A DNA stretch of 64,000 bases from Phytohabitans rumicis. GTDB lineage: Bacteria; Actinomycetota; Actinomycetes; Mycobacteriales; Micromonosporaceae. How positions within the stretch are numbered: position 1 is the stretch's first letter; each line of letters begins with the position of its first letter. The position numbers were made by a program, and so were the translations under genes. Positions 9,010 through 47,896 of the stretch are shown here, in pieces. The notes beneath the pieces were generated by a model that did no database searches, was not told the DNA's origin, and saw nothing but the letters and a program-made list of their open reading frames with translations. Where the stretch lies: the NCBI RefSeq assembly GCF_011764445.1, contig NZ_BLPG01000001.1:3968001-4032000 (forward strand), written 5' to 3'.

Positions 9010-9060
9010 CCACCGGTGACCCACCCGGTTAAGGCTAGCCACGACCCGCACGCGCGCCGC

Positions 9061-9180
9061 ATCGATCAAGGACTTTCGCGTCGATCAAGGGCATACGGTC
9101 GTGGTTTAGAGATCAAAGCACGGCCGTATGCCCTTGATCGACGCGCAGAGGGGGTTGCCCTTGATCGACGCGCAGAGGGG
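9061..9180. repeat. palindromic repeat family PR1, copy A, with an extra tandem arm
   Basis: The left arm (9077-9103) and right arm (9119-9145) are 27 bp each, pair with one mismatch, and contain GATCAAGGGCATACGG and its complement. The loop is about 15 bases (TTTAGAGATCAAAG). A further arm copy CCCTTGATCGACGCGCAGAG is repeated in tandem at 9158-9180, and GATCAAGGACTT precedes it at 9063. Related copies are at 21249-21331 and 47631-47715. It lies between the PH-domain gene and the Fic-like gene and overlaps the 3' end of the latter. Confidence 0.9.
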
Positions 9181-9928
9181 GCGCGGGCGGCGCGGCGCCA
9201 TCCAGGAACGCGGCGCATACCGACTCCAGTTCGTCGGCGGAGGTTGTTACGGCGGTGCAGTAGTGGCGGAGCCAGGAGCGCAGGCCGTCGGGGGTGCCCG
9301 TGGCGAAGGCGCCGGCCGCGCCGACGTACTCGGGTTGGCGGGTCAGATGCCCGACCTCGACGGCGAGCAAGCCGCGCGGGTCGAAGCCCCCGGAGATCAG
9401 CGTAAGCCGCGCGGCGGCGCGCGCCACCACGCCCGACGGGCCGGCGAAGGGGCGCAGTGCGAGCAGTTCGCCGTGTACGACGGCGGCCAGCACCAGCGGT
9501 GGCACCTTCGTGCCGCCGGTCACCAGGGCGGCCAGCGCGTCCAGGCGAGCCGTGGGCCCGGCAGGATGCCCCAGGTCGGACGGGGCCACAGCGCCGCGCG
9601 CCGCCAGGACGTGCAGCTTGGCGAGCACCTGCCGGGGCGCCTTGGCCCACAGGTCGGCGAGGCCGGGCAGGGCGCCGGCCACCCGGAGCGCGCCCTGCAG
9701 GACGGGGTCGGTCACGGTCCCGGCGCGTACGGCTTCGCGCTCGTGGGCGTACCCCTCAAGGGCGGCGCTGGCCACCGCGGACCGCAGGCTGACCTCGGCC
9801 GCGACCTGGCCGCCCTGCCGCCGCAACGCGCGGTGGCGCATCGCCTGGTCGACCCGGTCGCGGGCGGCGTTCACCGCATCGCGGACGTCGGCGAGGTCGA
9901 GCAGCGGCGCGAGCGGATCGGCGGTCAC
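9113..9928 (-). CDS. degenerate Fic-like protein (Rv3662c-type) with repeat-derived C-terminus
   Basis: A 271-residue, mainly helical protein. The arrangement resembles Fic/DOC proteins: a region with SLRSAVASAALEG (residues 47-59) recalls the inhibitory helix, and LALRPFAGPSGVVARAAARL recalls the catalytic HPFxxGNGRxxR loop. However, the catalytic His is Arg and the GNGR core is PSGV, so AMP transfer is unlikely. Homologues are often labelled oxidoreductase without evidence. The last 20 or so residues (RVDQGQPPLRVDQGHTAVL) are translated from two tandem arms of repeat PR1, so the original C-terminus seems to have been replaced. Start ATG at 9928. Confidence 0.6.
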   Translation of the reverse strand: MTADPLAPLLDLADVRDAVNAARDRVDQAMRHRALRRQGGQVAAEVSLRSAVASAALEGYAHEREAVRAGTVTDPVLQGALRVAGALPGLADLWAKAPRQVLAKLHVLAARGAVAPSDLGHPAGPTARLDALAALVTGGTKVPPLVLAAVVHGELLALRPFAGPSGVVARAAARLTLISGGFDPRGLLAVEVGHLTRQPEYVGAAGAFATGTPDGLRSWLRHYCTAVTTSADELESVCAAFLDGAAPPAPPLRVDQGQPPLRVDQGHTAVL

Positions 9929-21060: not shown

Positions 21061-21121
21061 CGTGGGTGGAACACCAGTGCTGTTAACCGGCCCACATAGC
21101 AGCACTGACGTTCCACCCACG
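21061..21121. repeat. 22-bp inverted repeat forming a large hairpin
   Basis: CGTGGGTGGAACACCAGTGCTG (21061-21082) pairs with 21100-21121 with two mismatches; the loop is 17 bases. It may be a terminator, an operator, or the remains of a small mobile element. I did not see a second copy in the window. Confidence 0.7.
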
Positions 21122-21248
21122 AGGTCGACCCGCTCTCGCGGGCGGAGCGCAGCACTGCGTCCCGGTGGTACCCGGCGTTGCGAGCCAAGCCCGCCGCCGG
21201 GGACGCCACCACAGCGCCGCGACCGCGCCGGAGCCGCGCCGGGGCCGC

Positions 21249-21331
21249 GTCGATCAAGGACTTTTGCGTCGATCAAGGGCAAACGGCCGTGGATTGGAGA
21301 TCCAAGCACGACCATATGCCCTTGATCGACG
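21249..21331. repeat. palindromic repeat family PR1, copy B
   Basis: The left arm (21266-21291, GCGTCGATCAAGGGCAAACG then GCCGTG) pairs with the right arm (21307-21331) with a few mismatches; the loop contains a small nested palindrome (TTGGAGATCCAA). An upstream half-copy, GTCGATCAAGGACTT, is at 21249. It lies just 3' of the first WXG100 gene. Confidence 0.88.
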
Positions 21332-29380: not shown

Positions 29381-29556
29381 AACCACCTCCGCCGGCCGGG
29401 GACTTACACCATATGAAAAACCGGCCGATAGCGAAATGCCCGTTCGGATCGAAGCCATCAGATATCCGGCGACACATAGTGGGCGTAGCACCACGTTGCG
29501 TAGGTTCGCCCCTTTTCACGTTCCCACCGTCCACAATCCACCGGGCGCCCCCGTCG

Positions 29557-29619
29557 CGGTGATCATGAAGTTATCCCCGCCGGAGAGCGCTCTCCCCGGC
29601 GACAACTTCATGATCACCG
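29557..29619. repeat. palindromic repeat family PR2, copy 1
   Basis: CGGTGATCATGAAGTT (29557-29572) pairs perfectly with AACTTCATGATCACCG (29604-29619). The centre is the palindrome GGAGAGCGCTCTCC (29582-29595). It lies 27 bp after the stop of the polyprenyl synthase gene. A second copy is at 47954-48014. Confidence 0.88.
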
Positions 29620-29646
29620 TGGACCGGGCGGCGGGGAGGGAGGGGG

Positions 29647-47630: not shown

Positions 47631-47715
47631 CCGTCGATCAAGGGCAAACGGCCGTGCTTTGATCTCTAAACCACGGCCGTTTGCCCTTGATCGAGACGAA
47701 AGTCCTTGATCGACG
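47631..47715. repeat. palindromic repeat family PR1, copy C
   Basis: The left arm (47631-47656) and right arm (47672-47698) contain GATCAAGGGCAAACGGCCGTG and its complement, with a loop CTTTGATCTCTAAAC that is the reverse complement of the loop of copy A, so the element is inverted relative to copy A. A half-copy AAGTCCTTGATCGACG follows at 47700-47715. It lies between the 5' end of the MenJ-like gene and the 3' end of the small 57-residue gene. Confidence 0.9.
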
Positions 47716-47722
47716 GGTCCGG

Positions 47723-47896
47723 CTAGCCGCACTCGACCTCGGGCTCGGACAGGTACGTGCTGTCGATACGCACCCCGGCTCGATCAAGCGTCGCCGTCAG
47801 GTCCGCGACGAGCTTCTGCGCCGCCTCCGGATCCTCCGCGGCGAGCCGCTGAATCTGCGCGATCATGCTTGAGATCTCTTCGGTCTCAACCAACAT
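47723..47896 (-). CDS. small acidic protein of 57 residues, function unknown
   Basis: ATG at 47896, TAG at 47723. The product begins MLVETEEISSMIAQIQRLAAE and ends YLSEPEVECG; it is helical, acidic, with one Cys next to the C-terminus. Codon third positions are G/C-rich, as in the neighbours, and the reading frame is clean. No clear Shine-Dalgarno sequence is visible. No family recognised. It lies 8 bp from repeat PR1 copy C and 115 bp from menG. Confidence 0.6.
   Translation of the reverse strand: MLVETEEISSMIAQIQRLAAEDPEAAQKLVADLTATLDRAGVRIDSTYLSEPEVECG

Follow-up and report, generated by a model that had tools for sequence, protein, structure and literature searches.

PR1 copies in the window and structure of the unit

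The window, the whole stretch of 64,000 nucleotides that was analysed, carries three copies of a palindromic repeat, PR1. Copy 1 lies on the plus strand. It consists of a 5' outer half-arm (9060..9079; ATCGATCAAGGACTTTCGC with C before), a 63-bp hairpin (9080..9142) with the loop TTTAGAGATCAAA, and a G-rich tail (9143..9195) whose 27-nt unit GCGCAGAGGGGGTTGCCCTTGATCGAC starts from the hairpin base and restarts at 9170. Copy 2, on the same strand, has its half-arm at 21248..21267 and its 63-bp hairpin at 21268..21330; a palindrome of another family, GGAACACCAGTGCTGTTA..., is located at 21061..21121 on its half-arm side. Copy 3 is inverted, with the 63-bp hairpin at 47633..47695 and the 5' outer half-arm at 47696..47715 on the minus strand. 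The positions of the three copies and the inversion of the third had been given in the initial annotation and were confirmed. A half-arm/arm pattern with at most 2 mismatches found 10 matches in the 64-kb window against 0.17 expected, and none of 100 shuffles reached 10. The arms are complementary over 31 nt (94%) in copy 1, 25 nt (88%) in copy 2 and 27 nt (96%) in copy 3. Predicted RNA folds of single strands range from -42 to -57 kcal/mol (z -6.6 to -11).

Each copy had been described as lying 3' of a gene. This is clear for copies 1 and 2; copy 3 adjoins the 3' end of a short, weakly scored ORF (47723-47896), and its opposite side faces a gene start. Copy 1 supplies the C-terminus and the stop codon of the neighbouring gene (9113..9928, minus strand), which ends ...RVDQGQPPLRVDQGHTAVL with its stop in the loop. 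The C-terminus is lengthened by element sequence (RVDQG repeats) relative to the shorter end of its relative in the congener G003. By eye, the orthologous stretches of four congeners (G002-G005) contained no element like copy 1 at the end of this gene. In the congener G001 the equivalent gene end carries an element of the G001 type where the window has copy 1. With Rfam at gathering score no match to PR1 was obtained in the window; the sole match, elsewhere, was 6C RNA (RF01066; 7135-7208, minus strand, 65.1 bits).

The unit was characterised in 1,459,304 bases (1.46 of 10.7 Mb) of the window's genome, G000, which is assembled in 3 contigs. This sample comprised stretches partly chosen for listed matches, the 264-kb neighbourhood of the window, the element-rich region 1.82-2.68 Mb, and contig 2 and 3 pieces. 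Since it derives partly from element-rich stretches, densities and fractions describe the sample and not the genome. In each inner arm, and likewise in the loop core, the finder tolerated two mismatches; the half-arm was ignored. Of its 124 matches, PR1 with a hairpin of 63 bp accounts for 115 and other palindrome families for 9 (8 without the loop orientation, 1 of 56 bp; types GATCTAGG, GATCAGGG and CGTGATCAAGGCGTCC).

PR1 is asymmetric: a half-arm of 20 nt is followed by a hairpin of 63 bp, whose GAGATC loop is constant, and by a G-rich, often tandemly repeated tail. The consensus of about 84 bp reads half-arm CGYCGATCAAGGNNTTYYSC, then GYCGATCAAGGGCRWAYGGYCGYGG-NNNN-GAGATC-VAAS-CRCGRCCRTWYGCCCTTGATCGRC, then G. 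When the copies are oriented by their loop, GATCAAGG stands at the same offset in the half-arm in 113 of 115; a matching half-arm is present on the 3' side too in 47. GAGATC and, in the left inner arm, GATCAAGGGC occur in all 115 copies, and the right inner arm carries GCCCTTGATC in 113. Both hairpin ends show the terminal inverted repeat GYCGATCAAGG. The stem of 24 bp begins with GATC after CGTC and encloses a loop of about 15 nt. The hairpin foot is CGTC in 95/115 copies and CGYC in 113/115.

Family size and placement in the genome

The arm GTCGATCAAGGGCAWACGG was found at 589 + 597 sites in the genome with at most 3 mismatches, compared with 1 + 2 for the reversed-pattern control. Palindromes of the form GATCAAGG-N28-58-CCTTGATC number 595 (control 0), of which a few belong to another family (3 of the 118 GATCAAGG matches in the stretches read; the other 115 are PR1). 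Thus, PR1 is a family of about 590 nearly identical hairpin-forming elements, mostly located just 3' of genes. The proposal of a large family was right but understated.

Genes were called with our own codon-usage predictor. Although coding sequence makes up 83.8% of the 1.46 Mb, only one of the 115 copies falls within a predicted gene. The 114 intergenic copies, without the 56-bp match, are found between convergent (54), tandem (52) and divergent genes (8); by intergenic length, 17.0 convergent and 32.8 divergent copies were expected. Hence, a bias to intergenic 3' ends, which had also been postulated, exists, and the family is not restricted to the copies first noted. The tail side faces a gene 3' end in 85/114 cases, with a median distance of 83 nt to that stop codon.

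Adjacent copies less than 1.6 kb apart are mostly oriented -+ (24 pairs), never +- (0), and rarely ++ (5, three of them in one tandem array) or -- (4). With the 56-bp match included in the counts, single copies in tandem contexts showed only a 23 vs 12 preference of orientation relative to the upstream gene, and a second palindrome family, GAGTAGGGCGCCCC..., stood between facing PR1 copies in 10 of 12 cases. On the same basis, 38 of 144 other intergenic hairpins were located within 400 bp on the half-arm side (12.3 expected; p 2.5e-10), 4 within 400 bp on the tail side (6.0 expected) and 102 far away. Other palindrome families in the sample, e.g. at window 29541-29635, are GATCATGAAGTTAGCG...CGCTAACTTCATGATC, GATCAGGGA...TCCCTGATC and GATCTAGGA...TCCTAGATC. 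Further ones are AAGGGCMCCTTGTTATGCAAAAAGCGATAACAAGGKGCCCTT, GCGTCCTTCAAGTCG...CGACTTGAAGGACGC and CTAGACGAGTTAGGGCTC...; some families have a common GATC head. Among the listed exact forward-strand arm matches, gaps of more than 1 Mb occur on the first contig (0.84-1.84 and 4.70-6.04 Mb); from these gaps, PR1 may be unevenly spread along the chromosome.

Conservation, tails and distribution

Conservation within PR1 is specific to position. Of the 63 hairpin positions, 45 have the same letter in at least 97% of the 115 copies (19 exceptions among 5175 cells); the other 18 positions hold 550 minor letters in 2070 cells. A set of 80 copies contained 75 distinct 63-mers, and there was hardly any linkage between its variable positions (median r2 0.01; 12/253 pairs with p < 0.001). 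The copies of G001 vary at most of the same positions, and their stem core differs. No half-decayed copies were detected in 659 kb scanned: profile scores drop from 37.7 to 21.2 bits, and the matches at 21.2 bits are half-arm fragments. The lack of decayed copies and the sharp conservation are compatible with two situations, renewal of the population through copying and strong selection acting on every copy.

The variable positions follow every third base in both arms (hairpin 14, 17, 20, 23, 26, 29 and the mirror positions). Twelve of the 18 fall into one codon phase (Fisher p 0.0008 when both mirrored arms are counted, 0.013 when only the left half is). Despite this periodicity we do not believe in a coding origin, because 114/115 copies lie between genes and GATCAAGG shows no variation at its synonymous sites.

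Paired changes between the arms, taken by the initial annotation as a sign that the hairpin is maintained, are real between the three copies noted there but are not general. For the six variable stem pairs of the 115 copies, the Watson-Crick fraction was 0.641 with a copy's own arms and 0.630 with swapped arms, and 470 of 2000 swaps reached the own value. In 27 copies of G001 it was 0.549 (own) and 0.578 (swapped). Own arms pair no better than swapped ones; thus, the arms look like two independent instances of one motif and not like a stem protected by compensation. Within G000 and G001 the swap tests therefore reject arm covariation as a sign of a selected stem. Pair 20/44 even leans weakly to mismatches (p 0.039, 115 copies). 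In the related elements of G032, another genome of the family, own arms pair better than swapped ones (0.80 vs 0.74 and 0.88 vs 0.72; 0/2000 swaps reach the own value; 34 of 38 copies used); part of this excess may be due to subfamilies. As to which strand might give rise to an RNA, the number of G.U cells on the loop strand was compared with that of A.C, which is G.U on the other strand. With 63 vs 76 cells in 80 copies of G000 and 35 vs 69 in 29 copies of G001, the loop strand is not preferred, and G001 leans to the gene-sense strand.

The 3' flank is G-rich (skew +0.331) and repetitive; its tail repeat score of 0.209 exceeds those of the 5' flank (0.101) and of 436 3' regions that lack an element (0.029). 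In 50/115 copies the first 10 nt past the hairpin recur 6-45 nt further out, e.g. as GGCATTAGCGGGC-GGCACTAGCGGGC-GGCACGAGAGGGG; elsewhere a 20-nt unit is present four times. Recurrence is 0.43 at the hairpin base (0.19 in shuffled tails) and up to 0.58 further out; being no higher at the base, it indicates that tail growth is not confined to this point. At E 1e-6, 33/115 tails resembled another tail, including three from one tandem array; at E 1e-3 the number was 69/115, as expected of G-rich sequence. Most tails differ from each other but are not wholly copy-specific. On the gene-sense strand between stop codon and hairpin, C and G amount to 0.491 and 0.279 after 46 genes with an element in G000, compared with 0.343 and 0.336 after 294 genes without one. 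The values for G001 are 0.489 and 0.306 after 22 genes with and 0.365 and 0.336 after 89 genes without an element. In both genomes, C-richness after the stop codon is seen only where an element is present.

The distribution among genomes is patchy. The stricter pattern CGATCAAGG-N26-56-CCTTGATCG, searched in 354 genomes of the family, gave 548 matches in G000, 242 in G001, and 1, 1, 8 and 0 in the congeners G002-G005; the 8 matches of G004 have other interiors. G032 showed 34 matches, all other genomes of the family 0-7. With a looser pattern G032 had 38 matches and G368 had 50 with unrelated interiors. The sites of G368 are palindromes of about 57 bp with GATCAAGG ends and very different, only partly palindromic interiors; possibly they form a separate, related family. 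In a phylum sample of 396 genomes, 17 including G000 had a match, the other 16 with 1 or 2 each. Copies of the G001 type were found among named records in at least two contigs of Micromonospora sp. CPCC 205371, with a pattern one base short that undercounts; these matches place the family near Micromonosporaceae. Carriage by phages or plasmids was considered, and no PR1 match was obtained in viral contigs (exact pattern), plasmids or phages. In the open papers searched, no description of PR1 was found.

The 264-kb neighbourhood of the window contains 21 copies. For eight of them synteny with G003 was displayed, and all eight sites are empty in G003. In seven cases the G000 block is 116 to 245 bp longer than the corresponding block of G003; that of the eighth site (e5) spans a gene as well. 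In 200 kb of G003 no PR1 was present, and the one finder match has a different sequence. Of five G000 sites in one stretch, two could be compared with G001 on a single contig, and both are empty there. Sites filled in one genome and empty in a related one indicate that the PR1 family spreads.

Interpretation and comparison with known systems

With its length of about 84 bp, PR1 is probably a mobile element of a REP-like, non-autonomous type that settles at 3' ends and is moved by an enzyme presumably other than Y1. New copies of it would enter intergenic DNA, for the most part next to a gene 3' end and alongside other palindromes, towards which their half-arm side would be directed. Copying would occur in trans by an enzyme that reads the sequence of arms and loop and not the pairing of the arms. 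Slippage at the hairpin base, or repeated rounds of synthesis there, may lengthen the tails. Hairpin and C-rich gene-sense tail could act as a putative 3'-end or Rho-type termination module, which would aid the persistence of PR1. Against mobility it can be argued that no mobilising gene was found among the proteins encoded between facing copies and that no target-site duplication was seen as footprint of insertion in 83 copies. Furthermore, undecayed copies with freely varying tolerated positions are equally expected of a site under strong selection, and some tails resemble one another.

Selection is the basis of a second reading, which is possible but in our view somewhat unlikely. PR1 sites would be selected as predicted RNA hairpins at 3' ends, either terminators or protectors of mRNA 3' ends, and mobility would be old or incidental. 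As a tentative mechanism, the C-rich stretch past the stop codon would load Rho, and the hairpin would stall the polymerase or block 3' exonucleases. The strong RNA folds, the median of 83 nt between stop codon and hairpin on the tail side, and the C-richness confined to genes with an element in G000 and G001 are in line with such a role. In G032, 12 of the 15 hairpins inspected stand 6-38 nt from a predicted stop codon, and pairing is better in own stems than in swapped ones. In the genus g4, each of three palindromes with the PR1 tag recurs at an identical gene end in two or three genomes. However, all eight displayed sites are empty in G003, the arms in G000 and G001 lack the covariation that a selected RNA stem should show, and orientation in tandem contexts is only 23 vs 12.

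Returning to the mobile element, a spread of PR1 by a replicative system of a new kind, neither Y1/RAYT nor DDE, seems unlikely to us in this specific form. Such a system would read the GATCAAGG-type arms and the GAGATC loop without arm pairing, leave no target duplication, and synthesise a one-sided G-rich tandem tail from the hairpin base. This tail would somewhat resemble the simple-repeat tails of eukaryotic short retroposons. A reverse transcriptase as mobiliser of a retroelement-borne repeat was considered as well. RVT_1 is not common to the carriers, with 1 match in G000, 0 in G001 (a draft of 480 contigs), 7 in G032 and 0-5 in G002-G005. The single RVT_1-domain protein of G000 lies near the start of the first contig (10603-11034; 58.5 bits). 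Y2_Tnp (IS91/ISCR-type) was not matched in any of 8 genomes, and its control was likewise silent. Moreover, no autonomous partner was recognised between facing pairs: among 15 proteins encoded there, none matches a transposase or recombinase in Pfam and 10 match nothing. A mobilising enzyme could still be among these 10 proteins.

It is very unlikely that PR1 is a MITE whose arms serve as terminal inverted repeats and are bound, in duplex form, by a mobilising DDE transposase. In favour of a MITE, each of the two arms is an independently conserved sequence motif, and the arrangement of two tandem sites at the left and a single one at the right is reminiscent of transposon ends. Nevertheless, no target-site duplication rose above noise in 83 copies (lengths 2-9, many offsets), no full-length relative with a transposase gene was recognised in 1.46 of 10.7 Mb, and the 3' end is ragged and often tandemly repeated. 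No palindromic extension beyond the element was found either.

Least probable is a classical REP/REPIN family with a RAYT (Y1, HUH) transposase acting on single-stranded hairpins, as the initial annotation had suggested. PR1 does agree with REPs in the literature (PMC3733652, PMC3116915) in its copy number, its extragenic position at 3' ends, its pairs of opposite orientation and the architecture of its hairpin; the absence of target-site duplications agrees too, and the family genome G013 with 4 GATCAAGG palindromes of other kinds has Y1_Tnp fragments. However, with the one Pfam model used (PF01797, Y1_Tnp) the element-rich G000, G001, G032 and G368 gave 0 matches while control genomes were positive, GTAG or CTAC occurs within 8 nt of a hairpin foot in only 4/115 copies, and arm covariation is absent. 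RAYT is therefore rejected as mobiliser of PR1. The first interpretation, a REP-like family with RAYT and a maintained hairpin, is thus partly supported: the large repeat family with its extragenic 3'-end bias stands, and neither the RAYT nor maintenance through paired changes in G000 and G001 does.

REPs are described as located mainly between convergent and tandem genes, as forming opposite-orientation pairs and as able to supply gene ends (PMC3733652). According to PMC3116915, REPINs carry GTAG and RAYT; hosts of REP/REPIN with RAYT named in these sources are Pseudomonas and enterobacteria (PMC3116915, PMC3733652). PR1 likewise comprises hundreds of extragenic palindromes at gene 3' ends, in convergent and tandem contexts and in opposite-orientation pairs, and sometimes supplies the end of a reading frame (copy 1). 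It differs from REP/REPIN by the lack of a Y1_Tnp match and of the GTAG tag, by the 24-bp stem, and by the fixed one-sided 20-nt half-arm with tandem-repeat tails opposite. A second class, the CGTC-tagged REPs, 'apparently lack a dedicated transposase' and have stems of 8-9 bp almost always starting with AT pairs, loops of mostly 4-5 nt, and CCA-like tails (PMC3733652). For PR1, too, a dedicated transposase is not known, and its foot is mostly CGTC; in contrast, its stem of 24 bp starts with GATC and its loop has about 15 nt. Insertion sequences that target REPs include IS110, IS3 and others (PMC1525189). PR1 shares their association with palindromes but carries no transposase and was seen beside other palindromes. 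In general, PR1 works like a REP family but belongs to neither described class, because it is without the RAYT and GTAG of REPINs and does not have a stem as short as that of CGTC REPs.

Elements of the REP type belong to the common bacterial repeat families; for the tagged ones, RAYT enzymes are usually named as the agents of spread. About 590 REP-like copies in an actinomycete without a Y1_Tnp match suggest another route to REP-like swarms. Testable clues to this route are the sharp division into fixed and variable positions, the lack of covariation between the arms and the tandem-repeat tails, and the two carrier species make the change from an empty to a filled 3' end directly measurable.
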